Part shown: positions 21,263 to 33,214 of the stretch, piece by piece | Layout: each line of letters opens with the position of its first letter | How positions within the stretch are numbered: position 1 is the first letter of the stretch | DNA from: Lewinellaceae bacterium | Lineage (GTDB): Bacteria > Bacteroidota > Bacteroidia > Chitinophagales > Saprospiraceae | Length of the DNA: 40,523 nucleotides | Direction: 5' to 3' | Assembly (NCBI GenBank): GCA_947459655.1 | Contig: CANHEE010000012.1 | Span: forward strand, 1-40,523 | Notes under the pieces: model-generated | The model's database searches: none | Told to the model about the DNA's origin: nothing | Seen by the model: the letters and a program-made list of their open reading frames with translations, nothing else | Made by a program: the position numbers and the translations under genes

Positions 21263-22000
21263 TCAGGACCGCGCTTTACATTTCATTCGGTAATCAAACA
21301 ATCCCATTTTCAAACCCACATTGAAATTCAAACCGGACAACTGACTGTTCGAAAGCGTTGAAACGGTGCTTCCAGAGGGATAAGAAACGTTCGAACCGCC
21401 AGCAACTACCCTGTAATTGGCTCCGACATACAGTTTTGCAAAACGAAAAAGATTGGCTTCCACACGCAGTCCGGGCTGAATGACAAAAAACGGATTGTTC
21501 CTGTCGAATCTCTTTGCAGGATCATGATCAGGTTGTTGGTTTAGATCGTCAAAACGGCGTCCGCCGCGTAGTGAATCCACTCTTGCCATACCGGCACCAA
21601 GCACGAGTGGGATGCTCAGGTGTACAAGCGAGTGTGGGGCAATGGTATATTCAAGTTGTGCACCACCAAGGCCGTAGTTCATGTGAAGACCTTTATTGTT
21701 CAGTTCAGTGGGAGTGAAACTTCTGCTGTGTGAGGCGGAAAGGCCAACGGCGAGGCGCTGATTAATCACAAACATTCCAGACAATCCCGCTGCAGGCGCA
21801 TAGGCACCGACAGCACCTACATACTGAAATTCAGGTGACACATAAATGCCAAGGGTTTTTATGGATGGCGAGACGGCACTCCAAAGTGTACGTGTTTTAG
21901 CCGGCGCAGTGGAATCGGCGACATTATCGATATTTTGGGCAGTTGCAACGAGAGAACTGCAGATTGCAGTGAAGATAAACAGACTAATTTTTCTAAACAT
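21263..22000 (-). CDS. Outer-membrane beta-barrel-like protein
   Basis: The 245-residue protein starts at the ATG at 22000, where the signal peptide MFRKISLFIFTAICSSLVATAQ begins; a further 12 upstream codons are open but contain MCLFLLHKKKQV and are not needed. The mature part shows alternating beta-strand pattern with many aromatic and Gly residues (LGIYVSPEFQYVGAVGAYAP, AGLSGMFVINQRLAVGLSAS, LYVGANYRVVAGGSNVSY, LSGLNFNVGLKMGLFDY), as in small PorT/OmpW-like barrels of 8-10 strands. It ends KCKARS rather than in an aromatic residue, so the last strand may be a few residues upstream. It is divergent from the ECF sigma gene across a 396-base gap, which makes it a possible member of that regulon. 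Confidence 0.65.
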   Translation of the reverse strand: MFRKISLFIFTAICSSLVATAQNIDNVADSTAPAKTRTLWSAVSPSIKTLGIYVSPEFQYVGAVGAYAPAAGLSGMFVINQRLAVGLSASHSRSFTPTELNNKGLHMNYGLGGAQLEYTIAPHSLVHLSIPLVLGAGMARVDSLRGGRRFDDLNQQPDHDPAKRFDRNNPFFVIQPGLRVEANLFRFAKLYVGANYRVVAGGSNVSYPSGSTVSTLSNSQLSGLNFNVGLKMGLFDYRMKCKARS

Positions 22001-22396
22001 TACTTGTTTTTTTTTGTGTAAAAGAAAAAGGCACATTCATTACCCCTTACGCCCCTCCTCGAGAAATGGTTGCCAAAGCAATGAAAAGCCATAGGGAAAC
22101 ACATAAAAAATCAAGACCGGAATTGGTTCCAACAAATTGATATTCAGTCAAAAAAAGCGAAATGTTTATTTCTATCAATCTCGACACAATTGACCACAAC
22201 AACATGTCACTAATCGTCTGAAGTGACACACAGTTGATATCCTTGAACAATTCACATAAAGCAAGTAAAATCTGCTTAAATGTACATGCAACCATTTAAC
22301 TCAAGGTTCTTACTTTCAAAGTATCCGTTTACCGGTAATGGCAACCCTTGAGCCGACCGCAACGTAAGGGATATAATCACATCAATCAAACCGAAT
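22001..22396. other. 396-base divergent intergenic region with two dyads
   Basis: I see no gene here. It holds a 7-bp perfect dyad TGTCACT-N10-AGTGACA (22205-22228) and a longer imperfect hairpin (22300-22308 with 22343-22352, one bulged base) just before the sigma gene. No TAnnTTTG element fits either gene, which would suit control by an alternative sigma factor. A 7-T/9-T rich tract near 22007 precedes the minus-strand gene. Confidence 0.4.
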
Positions 22397-22984
22397 TTGT
22401 TTTCAAAAAAACGAACCACCTTTAACGAGGAAAACCTTGAGGAAATCGTTGCGGCCTGTCTGAAAGGTCGCGAAGATGCCCATCGCATGCTGTTTGGGAT
22501 GTACTTCCCGTATGCCAAAAGCATCGCCACTCGATATTCGTCTGATGATGATGAAGCTAGAGAAATCATCAACGATTCTTTTTTGAAGGTATTCAAAAAT
22601 CTGGTGATGTATGATTTCGATCTGCCATTTAGGGCATGGCTAAGAACGATCGTGGTGCATACCTCCATTGATTATTTCCGCCGAAAAAAGAAGTACGCCA
22701 TACTATCTTTTCAGGAGCAATTGCCCGAGACGCAGGTAAGTGAGACCATCATTGACAGAATGTCCGCTGAGGAAATTATGATTCTTGTCCGCAGACTTAG
22801 CCCTGCATACAGAACCGTTTTTATGATGTATGTCGTTGATGGCTTTAACCACAGGGAAATCGCTGAACTATTGAACATTAATGAGGGGACATCAAAATCC
22901 AATCTGTCCAAGGCGCGTATCAGACTTCAGGAGATGATTTTGGAGGAAAACCCTGAATTATATCATCATTACTACAAGAACTGA
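22397..22984 (+). CDS. ECF-type RNA polymerase sigma factor, TTG start
   Basis: The 195-residue protein is a sigma-70 family ECF factor. Region 2 covers ~15-85 (GREDAHRMLFGMYFPYAKSI, SSDDDEAREIINDSFLKVFK, FDLPFRAWLRTIVVH), and region 4 covers ~125-180 (RRLSPAYRTVFMMYVVDG, FNHREIAELLNINEGTSKS, NLSKARIRLQEMI). The start is TTG at 22397: a stop lies at 22349, no ATG or GTG lies between, and region 2 would lose its first helix if translation began at the ATG further in. It directs polymerase to its own promoter set, usually under a membrane anti-sigma factor. The next gene (55 bases on) is the probable partner. No zinc-binding or C-terminal extension is present. Confidence 0.93.
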   Translation: MFSKKRTTFNEENLEEIVAACLKGREDAHRMLFGMYFPYAKSIATRYSSDDDEAREIINDSFLKVFKNLVMYDFDLPFRAWLRTIVVHTSIDYFRRKKKYAILSFQEQLPETQVSETIIDRMSAEEIMILVRRLSPAYRTVFMMYVVDGFNHREIAELLNINEGTSKSNLSKARIRLQEMILEENPELYHHYYKN

Positions 22985-23039
22985 CACATTCTAAAGTTGT
23001 GAAATAATTTTTTTCAGCCACTTTTAACAATATAGTACG

Positions 23040-24320
23040 ATGGGAACAGAATCCTTCGACAATAGAATTAAAGATAAACTTCAACAATACAATCCCGAAT
23101 TTCAGGAACATGACTGGGAGCAATTTGCTCTGCTTCTGCGGACACAAAATACCTGGTGGATGCGGCACCGCGAGAAGGTGACTTATGCAGCCGCAGTGCT
23201 GACATTGCTGTTGCTCTCGTTTCAGAATTTTAGCTTATGGGAGAGCAACAAGCAGCTTAAGGAAGCACTTTCTGATAAATTAGTTTCGCAAACTTCCGCC
23301 AATACTGTGGAGTCAGTTGTCAGAGACACCATTTACATCGTGCACGACAATTATATTTATCGGGATTATCCATTAGCTAATAAATCAGCAATGCGGTCTT
23401 TTGGTATAAAAGAAGATGGAAGATCATTACAGAAAACAAATAATCCATTTTCGCAGCAAAACGACTTTTTGGCCGCTAAAAAAGAATCAACACCCGTGCA
23501 CACAATCCACTCGATCAAATCGAAAGAAATTCTAACGGACTATACCTCAACCGAAAATATAGGCAGCGAAACAGAACAAAACGTTTCTGAAAAAAATATT
23601 GAAACTGCTGTCTATACAACAGATTCGATTGCCTCTTCAGCTGCACAAACCGATTTACTTTTGGCTCAAAGCTCAGGCGAAACAGCTCAGGCACCTTCAA
23701 TAAAAACGCCACTGAAAAAAGAACTAACGCAACGCTACAATTTTGCCGGTGGAGTCAGTTCCCTTTTCAGAGATGATTTTCTGGCTGCCGGTATCGAGGC
23801 ATTGTACACACGTGGAAGACATTTTCAGCTTTCTGTGGGCCTGCAATATGGACAGGGTTTTCATGAATTGTTTCGGGACAATGATGAATTCAGAGAACAC
23901 CACAATACTGATTTCAGGGAGAAGTTCAATCAGCCCTTACCAGCAACTGTGAAATTTACGGATATACATTCCCGCACCCACCAGTGGACGTTACCGGTTG
24001 CAATGTACTATAAGCATCCGCTTCACAAGGGACTCGAGGCGTTTGCCGGAGTAGGAATAGCCGTGGATCTTTTCACTGCTCAGAACTACGCCTATCAATA
24101 CACCGAAAATGGAAACTCCACCCTGCGCGGCAGACTTCCGCTTCAGCAGGCAGGTTTGAGGCTGAACCATCTGCATATTTCCACGGGAATCCAGGTCAAT
24201 GTAAAATCCCTGATTTTCAGGGCCGAGCCTGTCCTGATCTTGGCCAATAATTTGGGGAGGTTCGAAAATAAATTCCAAATGGAACCGGGCCTTAGGACCG
24301 CTGTATTATACAGATTCTAA
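23040..24320 (+). CDS. Probable trans-envelope anti-sigma factor: cytoplasmic N-terminus, one TM helix, linker, outer-membrane barrel
   Basis: The 426-residue protein has no signal peptide. Residues 1-45 are polar and likely cytoplasmic (DNRIKDKLQQYNPEFQEHDW); residues ~47-67 form a single membrane helix (VTYAAAVLTLLLLSFQNFSLW); residues ~68-230 are polar, low in hydrophobics and probably unstructured. Residues ~232-426 have the alternating, aromatic and Gly-rich strands of an outer-membrane barrel (FQLSVGLQYGQGFHELF, TLPVAMYYKHPLHKGLEAF, LHISTGIQVNVKSLIFRAE), and the chain ends in YRF, as barrel proteins do. Together with the ECF gene 55 bases before it, this fits the dual membrane-spanning anti-sigma factors reported in Bacteroides thetaiotaomicron (from memory). 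Anti-sigma action is inferred from position and layout; no known anti-sigma domain was recognised. Confidence 0.7.
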   Translation: MGTESFDNRIKDKLQQYNPEFQEHDWEQFALLLRTQNTWWMRHREKVTYAAAVLTLLLLSFQNFSLWESNKQLKEALSDKLVSQTSANTVESVVRDTIYIVHDNYIYRDYPLANKSAMRSFGIKEDGRSLQKTNNPFSQQNDFLAAKKESTPVHTIHSIKSKEILTDYTSTENIGSETEQNVSEKNIETAVYTTDSIASSAAQTDLLLAQSSGETAQAPSIKTPLKKELTQRYNFAGGVSSLFRDDFLAAGIEALYTRGRHFQLSVGLQYGQGFHELFRDNDEFREHHNTDFREKFNQPLPATVKFTDIHSRTHQWTLPVAMYYKHPLHKGLEAFAGVGIAVDLFTAQNYAYQYTENGNSTLRGRLPLQQAGLRLNHLHISTGIQVNVKSLIFRAEPVLILANNLGRFENKFQMEPGLRTAVLYRF

Positions 24321-24517: not shown

Positions 24518-25318
24518 ATGAAACTTAAAACCATCAGCAGCATTTTGGCAGTAGCCGGTATCGCAATCGCCGGTTCAAACTTCAAGCTAAACCCTTCCAA
24601 TCCGCCTACCCAGAGAACGGGTGCTCCCGGAGAAACCACCTGCCAAACTAGTGGATGTCATTCCGGAGGAACTTACAAAGGAACAGTGACTTTAACCGGA
24701 CTTCCGGACTCAGTCGAGGCGAATGCCACCTACACCCTTACACTCCACACAAAAAGCACGGGTGCGGTCAGAAATGGTTTTCAAATGACCTGTCTAACTT
24801 CAACCAAGGCCGCTTGCGGAACTTTCATCAATGTCAGTGGTACCAATATCGCCACTGCAAGCCTTAAGCAATATATCAGACAGTCAAACTACAAGAAATT
24901 TGCCGGTGATACTGCGGTGTGGACAATGAAATGGAAGGCACCTGCAGTGAAAAATGATAGTTCCTTTTTCTACTTTTCTTCGCTACTTGCAAACGGAAAT
25001 GGCGGCGATTCCGGCGACAACTGTCTGGCCGGAAAAAAGCGAATTTACTTCAAGAACACAAGCACAGCGACTGTCGAGCCTGTTGACAACAGTGATTTGG
25101 TTTCAATCAAAAGCAATGTGGTCAGGGAGATGCTAGATGTTCAACTGAAGGAAATTTCAGGTGAGCTAAGCATTTTTAACCTCCAGGGTCAAATCATGCT
25201 TTCGCGACAATTGAACGCTGACAATCAGATAGATGTCAGCAGTTTACCGGCTGGCACTCACCTCGTAGTGGTTAAAGTGGGCAATAAGTCGTTCAGTAAG
25301 CGCATCATTAAAATGTAA
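24518..25318 (+). CDS. Choice-of-anchor V/Reeler-like secreted protein with T9SS type A sorting domain
   Basis: The 266-residue protein has a signal peptide (MKLKTISSILAVAGIAIAGS), then GAPGETTCQTSGCHSGG (~36-52), which is typical of the choice-of-anchor V group, though the cysteine spacing here is CX4CH, so it is not a standard CxxCH heme site. Residues ~55-180 resemble a Reeler-type beta-sandwich (YTLTLHTKSTGAVRNGFQM, AVWTMKWKAP, FFYFSSLLANGNGGDSGD). The last ~70 residues form the T9SS type A sorting domain (LSIFNLQGQIMLSRQL, VSSLPAGTHLVVVKVGNKSF, ending KRIIKM). It is exported through the T9SS and probably attached to the surface. It has its own strong promoter and a terminator at 25334-25380. 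Role unknown. Confidence 0.85.
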   Translation: MKLKTISSILAVAGIAIAGSNFKLNPSNPPTQRTGAPGETTCQTSGCHSGGTYKGTVTLTGLPDSVEANATYTLTLHTKSTGAVRNGFQMTCLTSTKAACGTFINVSGTNIATASLKQYIRQSNYKKFAGDTAVWTMKWKAPAVKNDSSFFYFSSLLANGNGGDSGDNCLAGKKRIYFKNTSTATVEPVDNSDLVSIKSNVVREMLDVQLKEISGELSIFNLQGQIMLSRQLNADNQIDVSSLPAGTHLVVVKVGNKSFSKRIIKM

Positions 25319-25474: not shown

Positions 25475-28400
25475 TTACTGAAGTGAGAACCTAAGCATCA
25501 ATCCACCATTCACGTTGGTGCGCGGAAACGAAATAGAGGTCTTTGGCTTGCTTCTGTTGTAGTCTACAAAAAACCTCAATGTCAGCCGCTTATTCAGTGC
25601 GTAATCAACGGATGGCGACAACCTAATGGTGTACTCCCCGCGCGTCGGCACCCTGGTTCCCGCGTCCAGCTGATTGTTGTAGGTGACGTTATCCTGTAGA
25701 GAAAAATCACATTTCATGGTCAGGTCATTACCTGTTTCTCCTTTCTTTTTCTTGATCGGCTTACCTGTTTTCGGATCGATTTCCGGCTTATTCTCTTGTT
25801 TATCCTTCAGCTTGATGATGCTCTTTTTCTTATTGCGCAGCTCCTCCTGATCCTTTCCTTTATCAGCATCAAAATTCAGAAAGTCAAGTGCCTTAATGTG
25901 TACGTTTTTCATCCTGTACCCAAATGACATGGTATATTCATCACGCTTTTGCTCCATTAGCTGATTATCGAAGAAGCTCATTTGAAGATTATATGCTTTT
26001 TTGAAATCCGCCCTAAACGAAAGGTCGTTTTTAAATTTGACCTCCAAACCAATTAGCGGAGAGAATTCTTTATTTAGCACCACCGTGGGAATATTCAGAC
26101 TGGAATAATAGCTCCTGTTAACCGGATCTTTCCGAAGTGCATTCCCGGGATCGTAATCCGGTGTATTCGTATTGAACTGGTTCATGGTCAATGTCGACTT
26201 GTATGCATGCGATAATGTAAAGGTCTGCAAATATTCCTTGAACCAAGGCAACTTAGACAAACCGTTGTAGTTCAGTCGCCAGTTCGGCAACGGCATGGTG
26301 TTAAAAATATTCAGGTCAATTTTATTAGGATCTTTGCCATTATACGCAGCCATGAATGCAGGTATCAATACCTGCTGCTGTGTACGGCCGTATCCCGCAA
26401 AATAACCTTGGTCTTTTTCGTGTGCCGGTGCGTTCGGACCCGCAAGTCTGGAGGAAATGATCTTCCGGTAATCTGAAAACTGGTTGAAAATCGGATTCAA
26501 GGTATCATCTTTACCAAACATTCCCTTGAAATTCATGTAGGAAACTGTGTAGCTACCTATATCACGCATGGCCCTATGGTCAAAATCTCCTCCCGGCTCG
26601 AAAACCTTGAAATCCTGTGTGTGGTTTTTTGTATAGTTCTTATTGGCATCAAGTTCAATCCTAAAATCTGCAAATGGCTCCACAGTCAGGTTGGCCTGGA
26701 TTTGCTGCGATTGATTTCTGGATACAGGCTCGTTTAGTAGAATGGTATCTACAATCCAACCCCTTCTCGCCGTTTGATCCAGCCAAGCATCATCGGGCGT
26801 TCGGCCCACGAGGAAATCCCAACCGGGAGCTGTGAAATTCTGCTGACCAAATAATCCTGCCTGTGGTTTGAAACCCGGAACGGTATTGGCGTATGTCTCA
26901 TTGTACGAGAAACGGCCCTTTCTGACCAATAATAATGGTCTGATCAGTGCTCTTTCTGCCATTGTAGGCTCACGGTTTTCACGCGCGGCCTGCTTGCGTT
27001 CTTCACGAATTCTCTCGCGCTCCGCTTTTCTTGCAGCTGCCTCAGCGATTTTTGCCTCTTTTTCCGCTTTCTGCATGTCCTTCGTAATATCCCCCTTCGG
27101 AGTTTCAACGCCGACCACGCCTTTTTCCTGATTATTTAACTCTTTGACTTCTTCTGCTTTCTTCGCAGGCTCCTCTTTTTTAGCCTGGGCCTTCTGGCTG
27201 TCTTCAAAGGAAGCATCACTCAATTCGTTTTTGGCCTCATTCTTTGGTGCCTGCTTTGCTTTTTCGACTTTATTTGCAGCAATTTCGCCAGCGGTATTGG
27301 TTTTTAATTTTTTAGTCTCGGTAGTTTTCTTTTTGGCCTTTTGTCCTTTAGGTGTATTGATTTTTTTTAAGTAACTCGACTCATTGTACAACTGCTCAAA
27401 GTTAAGGTCACCTGTCACTTGCCGCTGCTGAGAATTTTTAATTGTGTTGCCCAAGAAGGTCGTATTGAGTGCCGCAGCATTCCAGTTGTAGGTAGTATTT
27501 AGCTGTGCCCTTACGGTAACCCAGTCCATGAACGGAATTTGTTTGGTTGGTACCGTATAATTCAGGTTTGCAGTCTGATTGTACAACTTTGTTCGGCCAA
27601 GTCCCCTCACATTCTTCCAGATGCTGTCGCGTTCTGAACGGGTGTCAATTTTTCCGTAAGGCTCATCTATAACAGATTGAACATCTGCTGCAAAGTTGAA
27701 TTTCAGACCCTTGCTGAAATCCCAGTTGAGGGTATATTTTCTGTCCCATCCAAATCGCTTGTTGTAAAAGGTACTCAAGCTGTCGTTTCTGGGCGTAAAG
27801 CGGTATAACGATGTGTTGTATTGCCTGATAACATTCGAGTTAAAACTCACATTGCTTGGCAGTGGATTAAAGTTAAAATCGCTGAAAAGCTTGAGGTACT
27901 TGTCCTGCTTAATCAGTGATTTCAGCGGAGTGACGGCTGTACTCGAAGGGAAATTATAATTGTAGTCCAGCTGACCCTTATTCAAAACCTTAGTTTCTTG
28001 CTCGATGATTGGGTCACTATATTTATCCATCGTATTCTGATAGGATACCGCGAAATTGGATACATTCCACGGCATTGGTTTTTTGTTTTCTCCCGAACCC
28101 GCATCCTTGCGGACGTTGTCAAAACTGATGTTCCTTACATTGCTTCTGGTTATTGCCTGCGTCCGGAGCGAATCTCTGATAGAAGGATTGGCTTTGGCGA
28201 GCTTGTTTTTCAATTCAATATCCAGATCATAGGGATCGTACTGCGGAGTTTTGTCGGTATTGGCATACTGGAAAGTGAACGGGATTTTCACACCTGATTT
28301 TGCCGGAAAAAATTTACCCAGCTCGAGCGTGGTACTGACGTCGTAATTGACCACCTGCACCCGCGAGCGCTGAAGCAGCTTTTGCTCCAATCCCCCCCAG

Positions 28401-31400
28401 CCAATGCCGGTGTAGTTGCCCGAAAGGGTCAAACGACCAAGATCTGCAAGTTTGAAATCCATGCGAGCGAGTCCGGCAGCACCACCCTGTTCATTGAATC
28501 CAGTCACCCGTAGCTCATTTACCCAGACCTCAACAGAGTGCGATTTCTGCGACGCATCTTTGTTTCTGACACCAATCATAATACCTTTGACCCAGCCGAT
28601 ATTTGGATTACCCTTCACTGAGACATACTCACCGGGTTTTTCGGGGTTGGCAATCTGGAATGGTATATTGAAATCGGGCTTCGCCTGCGCATTTCTCAAC
28701 TCTTTTACGGTCGTGAATAAGTTGAGCGGAAAGTCAAATTCATTGTCTGCAGGCCAAATTTCCTCACGATAGGCATCCTGAGTGTTGTTCAAATTTTTAA
28801 TGACGTCAAGACTCGAACTCCTGATCGGTATCTCGTACTCGTAGTAATTGCGCTCAAAGTCATTTCCGACACGAATGAAGGCCGTAAGATCACCCTTTTG
28901 CGGACTGGTTCTCGGACAACCGGGATTCTCCTCCATGTGTACAAACATCTTCATACGTTTGTACAAACGAACATCAAGATTCATCAGTTTGTAAATACCT
29001 CTTTCACTCTCAGGCAACAAATTGCATATGGACATGGCCATCGACTGTTCGTTTTGCAAAACAGCCTGTGCCTGTCCAGGTATCTGCTCGCGCTGGATTC
29101 CCGGAGGAAGAACGTAATTGAAATTCGGACGGGTACCATTCTCTTCAAAGTTGACGGAGTTTACGTCAAAAGAGGTGACATCCTTTATGGGGTCCGTTCC
29201 AGGATCAAGGTTGGGTTCACCAACGAACGGGCTTCTCCTGTAACGACGCCATTGGCTTCTGGACAATTCAAATTTTGCAAAACGCAGCGTTACGGGGCGC
29301 TCAAAATCTGTCAAATAGACGCGCATGAAACGAATAGAACGGAAATCCTGTATACCACCAACCTTTTTAGAAAACTGACTAATGGGTATCCTGATACGGT
29401 AAAAAACTGGATCTTTGTCCAGACCCCATGGATCTCTGCGGGTTGGAATCGGAATCTCGTCTACCACGAACTGATTTCGAATCATGTAACCGGTTCCATC
29501 ACCCACAAGAGGCACTTCATAGTGAAAATACGATTCTCCTTCGTTGTCCAGTGATTTGTTGTTGTCGAGGTCCTCCGAGTCAGGTATGTTTGTTGACGAA
29601 TTCACGAATCCGTTTACCGATTCTTGTGAGTTGCCTTCGGTATTGTTGTTTTTGATGTATCTGCTAAGGACACCATCGGAATCCTGAAATTTTTCATCAA
29701 GAAAATAGACAAAATTGTCATTGGACGGATCACTAAGAATTTCACTCTTTACACTTTGATCAATCGTAGAACTGCCAATATTGTCAACAAATGTCTTGAA
29801 CTGCGAAGCCTCTTCTGCATCGTTCATACCATCCAGCCCGACATCCTGCACCTGCCGCGCTCCGGCAGTGAGGTCGAACGCAGTGGTTACGGGGACAATT
29901 CTCGGAATCCGCGCCAGCTCTGTTCTGTCGACAGGAACCTTTTGTGTTGAGGTCGGCAAACCATTCTCATAAAACTGCCGAGAGTCTCTCAGGATATCCT
30001 CAGAAATGTTGCCCAAATCGATGTGGAGTTTACCTTTCAGGTTTTTATCCAGCAAAAAAGGTGACAGCATCCACATATCGATAAATTCGACATTGCTGGC
30101 TTCAAAATCGTTGTATGGAAGCGCCCTCATGATACCACCCCAACGCGTCTCCGGTTTGAGCAACTTACCTGATTGTGGATCGAGACCCTCTGAATATTTG
30201 AATTTTGGTGTACCAGTTTCGCGCACGTTATCAAAATTGTACGGACCACGCTCTGAAGGCATATAGGTAAGGTCTAGCAAGCGTGCATTGACTGAACCCT
30301 GGCCGAGGTTGGCAAACTGACGATTGGTCCAAATTTCGTCCTCCTGCACCGATCCAAAGTACGGATTTCGGTTGTCGGCATCTGTCCTTACTACTCCTCT
30401 TTGCGATATGTTGTTCCCACCATTGTCGGACACTACATACCAAAGCAATTTAGCGCGGTTTTTCCCGCTCTCAACTGAATTGATTTCAGCAGATTCTGGA
30501 AAACGGGGATTGTTACCTTCACGATCATTCTGCGGAACACTCGCCATATACCACAGGTTTGGCTGCCTCAGGTCGGTTCCGTTTGTGCTACCTTCAAAGT
30601 CCTCCACAAATACAACCCCTCCTGTTTCAGAACTGCCGTCTCTCCCACCCTGCTGATTGATGGCACGGGAGTGGCCCGGTTTAAGGAATGCTCCTTCTGC
30701 AACCAAACTCATCGACGACGGGGCCTTAGTTGAAATAAGGGGCAGCCTGTCCACCAGTTTGGTAATCCATGGTGCATCCTTGGTGTAGTTAACATCAAGA
30801 CCAAAAATGTTGTTGTTGATAGGGTCCTCACCCACATTTACTTTATTGGTGAACGGCCGTTCAAACAATTTCAAAACCGTACCACCTACAACAAAGTCCT
30901 TATTGATGGTATAGTCCCACCGGGTTCCAAACATCGATTTTTGCTGAAATCCAAAAAGCTGATTGTCTTCAAAGGAAACATTGACAGGTACTGAGGAATT
31001 GATGTAGGCCTCATTAAGTATTTTGATTGTACCCGTACTGTAGTTGACTTCGTAGTCGGTACCTTCTTTTAGGGGCGTACTTCCAGCAGTCACTTTTACC
31101 GACCCACGCGGAAGATTGAATGTATTGAGCTGAATTTCACTCTGCGAGGTACCCTTGTACTGACCCTTGATGGTAAATACATTGAACTCCGGAAACTCAC
31201 GTGCAGCAGTGATGGTAGTATCATACAATTGCTGATAAACGTATTTTCTTGCGTATAGCGGATCGGCAATTTTGCGCTCAAGCGAACTGCCGAATGGTTC
31301 GAGAACCGGAAAAATGATTTTACCCTGCTTTGAGTTGATGGTGACTCCTTCCACGAAGTCAAAAACGCCATCCGGTTGTGGATCACCCTGTACATTCAGT

Positions 31401-33211
31401 CTATCGAGGTTGAAAACATTCAATAGGGGTACTCCGGCTACTTTGGAATCCGGTAAAAAACGACGCTCTCCGTCACCTGGTTTATTATAGTATATTTCAA
31501 GCTTGAAGTCTTCTTTGGTTATCTGACTTGCACCGAGTGAATAGACATTTTTCATCATGAGGTCCCAAAGCGGAATATCAAGTCTCGGTGTAGAGGCCTT
31601 CAGCATTTTTACAAAAAGTACTTTCTGCGAAGCTGTTGAATCCTGAACCTGTGCTCCAGTACGCGGATCCGTTCTTCCAAAACCAATCTGTGGCGCGTTT
31701 GCAGATAACTCCCCCACCTTGTACTCTTTACCATTGTACTTATAGGTAAAGGCTACGCCCAGTACCTGGTTTGGTCTGAGCTGAAAATTGAGGGAAATAA
31801 ATCCGAGTTTGGGATCGAATGTATAGTCGCTGGGACTGAGTTTTCGTGCCCTGACTTTCTCAAAATCCCTGGTCTGCTGCATCTCGAATTTCCCGCCCCT
31901 TCCGGTGAGTTCACGGACTGCCTTGTCTATATTACGCATCCCTTCATCCTCAATAAGCTTGTCATAAAGGTTATTGGCCTCGTTGTAGGGAAGTGGTTTG
32001 CCATAAATATCCTTGTCCGCTGTCGCTCTGCCGCTGAATTTGTTGCTGACAATTTTTTCTGGTTCTGCTAGATCCGTCAGTGCTACGATGTCCCTGACGT
32101 TGTTGGTCTCCTGACGATCGTTTGTTACCCATACTTCCAGGTAGGTAATCTGAAAAAGGGAATTGATTTGGGGTAGATTTTTCAGAGCAGCTTCATAGCT
32201 GTTTCGATTGGCATGCGTAAAGAAGAAGTGCCTATTTTCGTCATACTGATCACCTCCAATTTGAAAGGTATATTTCTGCCCTCCCTTCTGAACCTGAACC
32301 TGCTGTCTTCTGGACTGCTGCTGCGCAGCGACTGTCGTAAAGCGCAACCTTCCAAACTGCAGTTCGGTTTTCAAACCGAAAAGACTTGAGGCACCCTGAA
32401 TAAGGGTACTTTTTAGAGGAAGTGAGACGTTACCCGCATCGATGTCTTTTAGGATGGCGTCATCGTTGGAAAGCGCCGGTATTGCACCGGTTGCACCATC
32501 AAGTCCCTTTCCACCAATTCCGGGAATTCCTCCACCCAAACCTTTGGCATCGTAGTTGAGCTTTAGAATGTTATCAAAACTAAAGGTAGCCTTGTTGTTG
32601 TAACTGGTATTCAGACTCAACTTTTCTCCGATTTTTCCGGTGACGTTGACCTGGATATTCATATCAAAATCCGGCTGGAACTGACGTTGCTGGAAAACTG
32701 AGACGACTGGGTTGGCCTCTTTTCGGTATCTTCCTCCAAGGGTGAGGTCTATTCTACCCTGGGGAACAATAGAAACTTCTGTGCCTCCAAAAAGACGGTC
32801 TGTTAGTGCCTGTCCGAGATCAATCTTGGAAAAGGGATTACTAAGACCCGGCTTGGCTCTTGAGGCCTGACCTACTCCCGATATTTTATCAAACATTGCC
32901 CTCTCCTGTTCACGTGCTTTCCAGTTGAAATACTCCTGGGCACTCATGTAGGTGGGCATGCGAAAATAATCATCCCCTATTCTTTCAGAGATGATGTACT
33001 GGTTGGTCTTAGGGTCAAATTCAACTTTCTTGTCTATAATGGAGGGGTCCTTCAAATCGAAAGGATTTCGGTACCTGTTTTGCAAAAAGTCCCCATATCT
33101 TTCCTTGACCGGAATGGTATCTTTTTGCGGTGCTTCAGCATGTCTTTCACGGGCCACAACTACTATAGAAGACAACAAAAATAAAGCAACAAGCACTTGT
33201 TTTAACTTCAT
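25475..33211 (-). CDS. sprA: SprA, outer-membrane translocon of the type IX secretion system
   Basis: The 2578-residue protein starts at the ATG at 33211 (a GTG stands just before it) with signal peptide MKLKQVLVALFLLSSIVVVA. It is SprA along its length: N-terminal GGRYRKEANPVVSVFQQRQF, LQFGRLRFTTVAAQQQSR, the FVEDFEGSTNGTDLR block, RGVVRTDADNRNPYFGSVQ and a C-terminal strand region (YTIRLSPSVDYALNKRLTLR) ending FSLQ. In Flavobacterium SprA forms a very large single-chain barrel through which T9SS cargo leaves; the window's two type A tail proteins are likely clients. Length is above the ~2400 residues of Flavobacterium SprA. Part of this is a Lys/Glu/Ala-rich stretch at ~1955-2085, which seems inserted between strands. 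Its gene stands alone, 316 bases below the tonB gene. Confidence 0.97.
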   Translation of the reverse strand: MKLKQVLVALFLLSSIVVVARERHAEAPQKDTIPVKERYGDFLQNRYRNPFDLKDPSIIDKKVEFDPKTNQYIISERIGDDYFRMPTYMSAQEYFNWKAREQERAMFDKISGVGQASRAKPGLSNPFSKIDLGQALTDRLFGGTEVSIVPQGRIDLTLGGRYRKEANPVVSVFQQRQFQPDFDMNIQVNVTGKIGEKLSLNTSYNNKATFSFDNILKLNYDAKGLGGGIPGIGGKGLDGATGAIPALSNDDAILKDIDAGNVSLPLKSTLIQGASSLFGLKTELQFGRLRFTTVAAQQQSRRQQVQVQKGGQKYTFQIGGDQYDENRHFFFTHANRNSYEAALKNLPQINSLFQITYLEVWVTNDRQETNNVRDIVALTDLAEPEKIVSNKFSGRATADKDIYGKPLPYNEANNLYDKLIEDEGMRNIDKAVRELTGRGGKFEMQQTRDFEKVRARKLSPSDYTFDPKLGFISLNFQLRPNQVLGVAFTYKYNGKEYKVGELSANAPQIGFGRTDPRTGAQVQDSTASQKVLFVKMLKASTPRLDIPLWDLMMKNVYSLGASQITKEDFKLEIYYNKPGDGERRFLPDSKVAGVPLLNVFNLDRLNVQGDPQPDGVFDFVEGVTINSKQGKIIFPVLEPFGSSLERKIADPLYARKYVYQQLYDTTITAAREFPEFNVFTIKGQYKGTSQSEIQLNTFNLPRGSVKVTAGSTPLKEGTDYEVNYSTGTIKILNEAYINSSVPVNVSFEDNQLFGFQQKSMFGTRWDYTINKDFVVGGTVLKLFERPFTNKVNVGEDPINNNIFGLDVNYTKDAPWITKLVDRLPLISTKAPSSMSLVAEGAFLKPGHSRAINQQGGRDGSSETGGVVFVEDFEGSTNGTDLRQPNLWYMASVPQNDREGNNPRFPESAEINSVESGKNRAKLLWYVVSDNGGNNISQRGVVRTDADNRNPYFGSVQEDEIWTNRQFANLGQGSVNARLLDLTYMPSERGPYNFDNVRETGTPKFKYSEGLDPQSGKLLKPETRWGGIMRALPYNDFEASNVEFIDMWMLSPFLLDKNLKGKLHIDLGNISEDILRDSRQFYENGLPTSTQKVPVDRTELARIPRIVPVTTAFDLTAGARQVQDVGLDGMNDAEEASQFKTFVDNIGSSTIDQSVKSEILSDPSNDNFVYFLDEKFQDSDGVLSRYIKNNNTEGNSQESVNGFVNSSTNIPDSEDLDNNKSLDNEGESYFHYEVPLVGDGTGYMIRNQFVVDEIPIPTRRDPWGLDKDPVFYRIRIPISQFSKKVGGIQDFRSIRFMRVYLTDFERPVTLRFAKFELSRSQWRRYRRSPFVGEPNLDPGTDPIKDVTSFDVNSVNFEENGTRPNFNYVLPPGIQREQIPGQAQAVLQNEQSMAMSICNLLPESERGIYKLMNLDVRLYKRMKMFVHMEENPGCPRTSPQKGDLTAFIRVGNDFERNYYEYEIPIRSSSLDVIKNLNNTQDAYREEIWPADNEFDFPLNLFTTVKELRNAQAKPDFNIPFQIANPEKPGEYVSVKGNPNIGWVKGIMIGVRNKDASQKSHSVEVWVNELRVTGFNEQGGAAGLARMDFKLADLGRLTLSGNYTGIGWGGLEQKLLQRSRVQVVNYDVSTTLELGKFFPAKSGVKIPFTFQYANTDKTPQYDPYDLDIELKNKLAKANPSIRDSLRTQAITRSNVRNISFDNVRKDAGSGENKKPMPWNVSNFAVSYQNTMDKYSDPIIEQETKVLNKGQLDYNYNFPSSTAVTPLKSLIKQDKYLKLFSDFNFNPLPSNVSFNSNVIRQYNTSLYRFTPRNDSLSTFYNKRFGWDRKYTLNWDFSKGLKFNFAADVQSVIDEPYGKIDTRSERDSIWKNVRGLGRTKLYNQTANLNYTVPTKQIPFMDWVTVRAQLNTTYNWNAAALNTTFLGNTIKNSQQRQVTGDLNFEQLYNESSYLKKINTPKGQKAKKKTTETKKLKTNTAGEIAANKVEKAKQAPKNEAKNELSDASFEDSQKAQAKKEEPAKKAEEVKELNNQEKGVVGVETPKGDITKDMQKAEKEAKIAEAAARKAERERIREERKQAARENREPTMAERALIRPLLLVRKGRFSYNETYANTVPGFKPQAGLFGQQNFTAPGWDFLVGRTPDDAWLDQTARRGWIVDTILLNEPVSRNQSQQIQANLTVEPFADFRIELDANKNYTKNHTQDFKVFEPGGDFDHRAMRDIGSYTVSYMNFKGMFGKDDTLNPIFNQFSDYRKIISSRLAGPNAPAHEKDQGYFAGYGRTQQQVLIPAFMAAYNGKDPNKIDLNIFNTMPLPNWRLNYNGLSKLPWFKEYLQTFTLSHAYKSTLTMNQFNTNTPDYDPGNALRKDPVNRSYYSSLNIPTVVLNKEFSPLIGLEVKFKNDLSFRADFKKAYNLQMSFFDNQLMEQKRDEYTMSFGYRMKNVHIKALDFLNFDADKGKDQEELRNKKKSIIKLKDKQENKPEIDPKTGKPIKKKKGETGNDLTMKCDFSLQDNVTYNNQLDAGTRVPTRGEYTIRLSPSVDYALNKRLTLRFFVDYNRSKPKTSISFPRTNVNGGLMLRFSLQ

Positions 33212-33214
33212 CAC

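Follow-up and report, generated by a model that had tools for sequence, protein, structure and literature searches.

A candidate Dma (Reo)-type sigma/anti-sigma switch with a divergent barrel gene and shared promoter-like elements in a Lewinellaceae bacterium

The analyzed stretch of DNA, called the window here, comprised 40,523 nucleotides of contig CANHEE010000012.1 from a Lewinellaceae bacterium (assembly GCA_947459655.1, 2.99 Mb in 175 contigs, 99.83% complete). An ECF sigma factor gene was followed in it by the gene of a 426-aa partner protein, and a gene encoding a second barrel-type protein diverged from the pair (Table 1). The original prediction had placed the partner gene 55 bases behind the sigma gene; these coordinates held, and the first product was recognized by Pfam as having regions 2 and 4 of a sigma factor. 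The G+C content across the pair (positions 22000-23999) was 0.40-0.42, against 0.44-0.47 in the adjoining kilobases. Downstream of the pair, a gene for a choice-of-anchor V protein with a type A sorting domain (24518-25318, + strand) lay beside the gene of the type IX outer-membrane translocon Sov/SprA (25475-33214, - strand; TIGR04189, 2276 bits).

Table 1. Features of the sigma/partner locus, in window coordinates
Feature	Position	Strand	Details and basis
Divergent gene, probable regulon member, predicted exported eight-stranded barrel	21263..22000	-	245 aa from ATG 22000; AlphaFold2, homologues
Matching promoter-like element GGCAAC-N17-CGTA	22048..22074	-	47 nt before divergent ATG 22000; upstream-region comparison
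ECF-type promoter-like element GGCAAC-N17-CGTA	22340..22366	+	30 nt before sigma start codon; upstream-region comparison
ECF sigma factor gene	22397..22984	+	195 aa, TTG start; Pfam
Dma-type anti-sigma factor (by architecture)	23040..24320	+	426 aa, ATG start; AlphaFold2, structure matches, relatives
Residues 1-34, predicted sigma-binding two-helix module (helices 3-16 and 23-34)	23040..23141	+	AlphaFold2, module profile
Residues 47-67, predicted inner-membrane helix	23178..23240	+	Hydropathy, low-confidence model helix 44-78
Residues 79-230, predicted disordered polar linker including DTIYI 96-100	23274..23729	+	pLDDT, composition, motif count
Residues 231-426, predicted eight-stranded barrel, ends LYRF	23730..24317	+	AlphaFold2, structure matches

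The sigma protein matched the Pfam families Sigma70_r4_2 (PF08281, E 8.3e-15) and Sigma70_r2 (PF04542, E 3.9e-11). Its identity to five orthologues from the family was 35-45%, and values up to 50% were recorded for further relatives. Among the 25 NCBIfam families listed for the protein, TIGR02937 (ECF superfamily) was the sole model passed. An assignment to Sig70_bacteroi1 was dropped at 87 bits against a cut-off of 126.4, and the 65.8 bits obtained for sigma_PG0214 (NF058625) placed the protein outside that family, which requires more than 130. Twelve sigma matches were found in the own genome, four of them close paralogues. The partners of the latter measured 426, 461, 421 and 236 aa, being at least 421 aa long on contigs C12, C51 and C6 and 236 aa long on contig C72. 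The C72 partner (locus L047, 3695-4405) carried a transmembrane helix and left scant room for a barrel. On contig C51 (locus L046, 3573-4958 and 5161-6204), a second long partner, with an OMP_b-brl match below the cut-off, lay directly before a type IX gene of the PorP/SprF family (170.8 bits).

The first ATG of the divergent ORF was located at 22036 (ORF 21263-22036, - strand). The start is probably at ATG 22000, which opens a signal-peptide-like sequence (MFRKISLF...) and was preferred because of this signal peptide and of the conserved distance to the promoter-like element. The divergent protein gave no match in Pfam. Its AlphaFold2 model, computed with 3 sequences in the alignment, consisted of a signal-peptide-like helix and an eight-stranded barrel (mean pLDDT 70.2). 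When the barrel was compared with known structures, the first 12 rows were outer-membrane barrels with Z 14.0-16.5, among them Legionella porin III (16.5), NspA (15.9) and OmpW (15.0), and a designed soluble barrel stood below them in row 17 (Z 12.2). A homologue of the divergent protein adjoined the orthologous pair in locus L061 (pairwise, E 4e-9), and two homologues lay beside the pair of Algoriphagus marincola (L080; 1.9e-26 and 1.9e-17 with a two-row profile).

The divergent and the sigma gene were preceded by matching promoter-like elements. The form GGCAACC...CGTA was first noticed by eye in upstream regions set side by side, and was later counted in the same 22 regions, namely the window, 14 regions from loci of named organisms and 7 others. 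Of these, 11 had the pattern GCAAC-N17..19-CGTA on the sigma strand and 8 on the opposite one, 7 regions having it on both; 200 dinucleotide-preserving shuffles of the regions gave a mean of 0.055 and a maximum of 1 on the sigma strand and 0 on both strands. The sigma strand of 11 of the 22 regions was devoid of the element, and Dyadobacter contributed 6 of the 11 positives. A scan of spacers from 8 to 29 placed 10 sigma-strand regions at 17, one at 18 and none at 16 or 19; two strays were seen at 9 and one at 21. The opposite strand had the element at 17 in 6 regions and at 18 in 2. The bases between the boxes varied between lineages.

Further, six sigma orthologues were scanned against genome contigs, and the best 80 of 537 confirmed stretches were taken. 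Among these 80 loci, 7 of the 16 closest carried the sigma-strand element with a spacer of 17-18; a single one of the 64 others did so, and there the element sat 4 nt inside the called ORF. The other-strand element occurred in 6 of the same best 80, all within the 7 sigma-strand positives of the closest 16. Two changes were needed to place the element on a sigma tree of 95 rows. This tree, made by a quick method and weak in 42 of its 92 inner branches, put the window in a 13-row set in which all partners were long, with Dyadobacter nearest by path.

The distance of 47 nt from the element to the divergent ATG recurred in L066 and L071, and amounted to 57, 55, 34 and 121 nt in L076, L077, L080 and L079, respectively; in L069, no ORF of at least 60 aa was found on the divergent side. 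A PepSY-like lipoprotein gene was the neighbour instead in L066 and L071 (Dyadobacter), L079 (Lacihabitans), L052 and L064, with scores of 17.2-25.7 that lie below the Pfam cut-off of 28.3. Such a gene was found above the cut-off (33.0) in L061, in addition to the barrel gene, and the remaining loci of the set had other neighbours. Since the neighbours differed between loci, the likely target appears to vary by lineage, with the element and its place kept in several.

Within the 40.5-kb window, the exact pattern GGCAAC-N17-CGTA occurred at the two sites of Table 1 only. When up to one mismatch was allowed, 4 matches were obtained, which was within chance (shuffles: mean 1.52, 8 of 100 reaching 4). 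Genome-wide, GGCAACN16-18CGTA was not enriched, with 14 matches compared with 20 when the pattern was reversed. Eleven of the 14 were inside ORFs of at least 292 aa, and the rest were the two window sites and one on contig C2, 24 nt ahead of an ORF; this genome-wide promoter search brought up no other convincing member of the regulon.

The shared elements and their recurrence before orthologous sigma genes and divergent envelope genes suggest that the pair probably regulates its own expression as well as that of the divergent gene, which is probably a direct target next door. The original prediction had already named the barrel gene at 21263 as a possible target, and the matching element backs this proposal. 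It is unlikely that the elements are instead the sites of another regulator or sigma factor, with the pair exerting no control over the divergent gene. The elements are known from comparison alone and the pattern lacks enrichment across the genome, as such a reading would allow. Against it, ECF promoters carry AAC in the -35 and CGTA in the -10 box, and the boxes found here have this form. They precede the start codons of two oppositely oriented genes by 30 and 47 nt and track the sigma clade in the comparison of the closest 16 with the 64 other loci among the best 80 of 537.

The partner protein gave no match in Pfam or NCBIfam at E 0.1, and a sequence search of the PDB with the Dma alignment yielded no convincing relative (one match, E 0.6). 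It was modeled by AlphaFold2 from an alignment with 13 homologues of the surveyed loci. Helices were predicted at residues 3-16, 23-34 and 44-78, residues 79-230 were almost unstructured, and eight strands were formed between residues 233 and 425. The mean pLDDT was 61.0, with 74-95 in the barrel blocks apart from one block of 55 at 401-410, 66-74 in the N-terminal 30 residues, less than 50 across residues 33-230 including the membrane helix, and 29-45 by block in the linker. Due to this low confidence, the assignment of the N-terminal, membrane and linker parts rests more on the sequence and the relatives. The most hydrophobic 19-residue stretch of the protein was 47-65, with a mean Kyte−Doolittle value of 1.43 against a usual threshold of 1.6. 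In the first ~150 residues of 78 partners from the best 80 of 537 loci, this peak was at least 1.4 in 67 and at least 1.6 in 58, and it was below 1.4 in four of the 14 closest partners listed (L066, L078, L079 and L080). The residues S, T, N, Q, E, D, K, R, H and G made up 63% of the 152-aa linker. In an alignment of 46 partners, P319 was invariant and W26, G267 and G339 were nearly so.

A comparable layout is known from the Dma family, which was described as an N-terminal sigma-binding part, one transmembrane helix, a long disordered tether and a C-terminal barrel (PMC13088901). Dma1 and Dma2 act there with Das1 and Das2 in Bacteroides thetaiotaomicron, and the same source reports Dma proteins from Bacteroides and calls them confined to Bacteroidota. 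These are the dual membrane-spanning anti-sigma factors of B. thetaiotaomicron that the original prediction had named, and their described layout matches the 426-aa protein (PMC13088901). By its architecture, the protein may be counted as a Dma member, set beside Dma1, Dma2 and Reo by their descriptions. It shares with Dma1 and Dma2 the four-part layout and the adjoining ECF sigma gene (PMC13088901), and differs from them in its neighbour: in the window this is a divergently oriented gene for a predicted outer-membrane barrel, preceded by a matching promoter-like element, and for Dma1 and Dma2 it is NigD or BT_1557. Reo of Phocaeicola vulgatus and Bacteroides fragilis is likewise described as an anti-sigma factor with a C-terminal barrel encoded downstream of the sigma gene, ecfO. 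The sigma gene of that system is raised under envelope stress, 33-fold in P. vulgatus by the toxin BcpT (PMC9308784). The EcfO regulon consists of envelope proteins, surface lipoproteins included (PMC13114119), and the candidate regulon of the window would be of the envelope as well. The EcfO regulon includes three nigD lipoprotein genes; in their place, the window probably has an outer-membrane barrel, and some Dyadobacter relatives of the pair have a PepSY-like lipoprotein as the probable target.

From gene order and precedent, it was proposed that the 426-aa protein holds the sigma factor. Quite unlikely, in our estimate, is a role of the protein as a positive co-regulator, that is, a FecR-like pro-sigma factor whose N-terminus is needed for sigma activity and is gated by the barrel. 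FecR-type regulators likewise pair with ECF sigma factors, and the gene order fits an inhibitor or a positive co-regulator alike. On the other hand, the FecR domain was not found in the protein by Pfam at E 0.1, and Dma2 and Reo, which have a like layout, inhibit according to deletion genetics (PMC13088901; PMC9308784). The proposed binding and inhibition of the sigma factor are carried over from Dma2 and Reo by analogy.

The C-terminal domain of the partner was compared with known structures. The highest scores were obtained for OprF (Z 17.3, rmsd 2.1, 131 residues aligned), OmpA (15.9, 2.7, 131), OmpW (15.8, 3.3, 158) and NspA (15.3, 2.6, 146). Rows 1-33 of the best 50 matches were outer-membrane or designed transmembrane barrels, and the first soluble barrel appeared in row 34 (Z 10.8). 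Both this domain and the divergent product thus share the eight-stranded fold of OmpA, OmpW, NspA and OprF; the difference is that one of the two barrels of the window is joined to a putative cytoplasmic module and a transmembrane helix. Pfam barrel families were matched at E 0.01 by long partners, PF13568 (OMP_b-brl_2) by 23 of 46 and PF13505 (OMP_b-brl) by 13 of 46, with the window protein in neither.

A soluble periplasmic barrel of the lipocalin or YceI type, which would turn the protein into a conventional anti-sigma factor that spans one membrane and bears a globular sensor, is very unlikely. Strand alternation alone would fit it too, a polyisoprenoid-binding protein (Z 10.8) and a YceI-like protein (Z 9.8) were among the matches, and a C-terminal aromatic residue was present in 0 of the 13 complete closest partners listed, unlike the window protein with its YRF end. 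These points are opposed by the 33 leading rows of outer-membrane or designed transmembrane barrels, with Z up to 17.3, and by the PF13568 and PF13505 matches among the 46 long partners. The layout proposed by the original prediction (no signal peptide, a transmembrane helix at ~47-67, a polar linker and a barrel-like C-terminus ending YRF) was reproduced by sequence and model together. A barrel was predicted where its absence had been named as a counter-sign, and the leading outer-membrane matches speak against a globular periplasmic C-terminus. Based on the model, we infer that one chain is probably anchored in both membranes and reaches from the cytoplasm to the outer membrane.

The pairing of the two genes was widespread. 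A same-strand ORF of at least 120 aa, starting between -150 and +400 nt of the sigma stop, was found in 78 of the best 80 of 537 loci; L073 and L145 were without a downstream partner ORF, and the ORF of L074 looked unrelated and was dropped. A set of 98 partners was assembled from the best-80 loci, 20 further regions and the window. Of the further regions, 17 were picked by Dma-profile matches, which is a biased choice, and 3 by sigma paralogy in the own genome. The set contained 64 long partners (at least 330 aa, a class defined by length only and not by the fold of each protein), 25 short ones (less than 330 aa), 6 whose end was a type IX secretion signal or resembled one, and 3 that were cut off. 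A profile of the two-helix module, built iteratively from the same partner set on which it was counted, matched 95 of the 98 partners (weakest E 0.75, window 1e-9). A single-sequence search of 100 genomes of the family found 3, including the own genome, and at E 0.01 a three-row profile gave 55 of 298; judged by eye, these matches mostly involved the N-terminal 100 residues. The original prediction was right in seeing a member in another lineage; the case is not rare, because long partners follow the sigma gene in many Bacteroidota. It is highly improbable that the protein serves chiefly to hold the two membranes together, with regulation secondary: a chain fixed in both membranes would, as modeled, tether them regardless, but the partner gene follows the sigma gene in those 78 of 80 loci, and the 25 short partners of the 98 keep their place beside it. 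In a metagenome-assembled genome labelled Balneolales (Balneolota), a long partner of 453 aa was seen behind a sigma gene (L144, 3310-4671). It had no match in Pfam, NCBIfam or the two-helix module profile, so the origin of the contig and the kinship of the protein are unsure.

Within the same sigma group, partners with other ends were observed. Those of L082 (2384-3766), L095 (5065-6417) and L112 (5056-6324) had type IX ends, L083 and L085 did so more weakly, and L115 was recognized by eye. In L082 and L095, the N-terminal module and the transmembrane helix were followed by PKD domains and, at the C-terminus, a type IX secretion signal according to Pfam (PF13585, 48.2 and 61.5 bits; cut-off 27). 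L082, L095 and L112 passed the TIGR04131 cut-off, L083 and L085 scored below it, and L115 gave no match. An anti-sigma factor ending in this way may be pulled outward by the type IX system and thereby serve as a readout of how that system is working. Tandem sigma-binding-like modules of ~30 residues were observed in L092 (5278-7536), L094 (5178-7232), L056, L065, L122, L123 and others, and by eye in L091. At least 2 matches to the module profile were counted in 28 of the 98 partners, or in 26 if the second had to reach E 0.1; L092 had nine and L094 seven. The module stretch of L092 contained an 84-bp tandem array of 5.2 copies. Several sigma factors are perhaps held by one anchor through such modules. 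Natural sigma-Dma fusions were not found among the ORFs of loci L046-L145. A literature search revealed no paper on anti-sigma factors with type IX signals, and a search of titles and abstract openings none on tandem sigma-binding modules; such absence is no proof.

Based on all comparisons, the locus was interpreted, with a probability of about 0.76, as a Dma (Reo)-type switch in which a sigma/anti-sigma pair senses the envelope and has its own operon and the divergent gene as targets. The analysis computed the genes and the barrel folds predicted for their products, as well as the pair of matching elements and how these recur beside orthologues, and what is new is the promoter-like element with the local candidate regulon. 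In the proposed switch, residues 1-34 would hold the ECF sigma factor in the cytoplasm, one helix would span the inner membrane, ~150 disordered residues would cross the periplasm, and the eight-stranded barrel would reside in the outer membrane. It may be speculated that misassembly of the barrel or a disturbance of the outer membrane leads to the chain being cut or pulled, and that the sigma factor is freed in this way. The free sigma factor would read the GGCAAC-N17-CGTA promoters, thus raising its own operon by feedback as well as the divergent gene for the second outer-membrane barrel.

The signal and the release step are the speculative part of this switch. A DTIYI-like motif behind the transmembrane helix was present in 12 of the 14 closest partners listed and in 1 of 63 others, L074 being omitted; by eye, the partners of L052, L058 and L064 were without it. 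The motif could be a protease or docking site. In the own genome (99.8% complete), RseP was not found above the cut-off, three TIGR00054 matches scoring 19-35 bits against 147.55, when 9 of 14 control genomes had TIGR00054 above it. The sole M50 match was a site-2-type protease of 231 aa. With no RseP above the cut-off and a single M50 match of this size, classical regulated proteolysis is not assured.

A wider reading, possible and offered tentatively, would see a barrel that watches barrels, built on a Bacteroidota chassis with exchangeable sensor ends and multiplied modules. The Dma barrel would compete for outer-membrane assembly, and its failure would switch on the sigma factor with a mainly local regulon of two promoters. 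The second eight-stranded barrel might then repair, cap or occupy the same site, closing the loop. The chassis would consist of the two-helix module and the transmembrane helix, with an outer-membrane barrel, a short periplasmic tail or PKD domains plus a type IX signal as its ends. A sensor with such a signal may be pulled outward via the secretion system, and the sigma-binding modules would be multiplied, up to nine profile matches per protein.

Dma-type regulators are a young class. The locus supplies a specific promoter-like sequence, a neighbouring gene that is probably a direct target, and a candidate regulon of small size, which makes the signal perceived by the barrel amenable to a reporter test. 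The comparison indicates that such pairs are widespread in Bacteroidota, with other sensor ends too.
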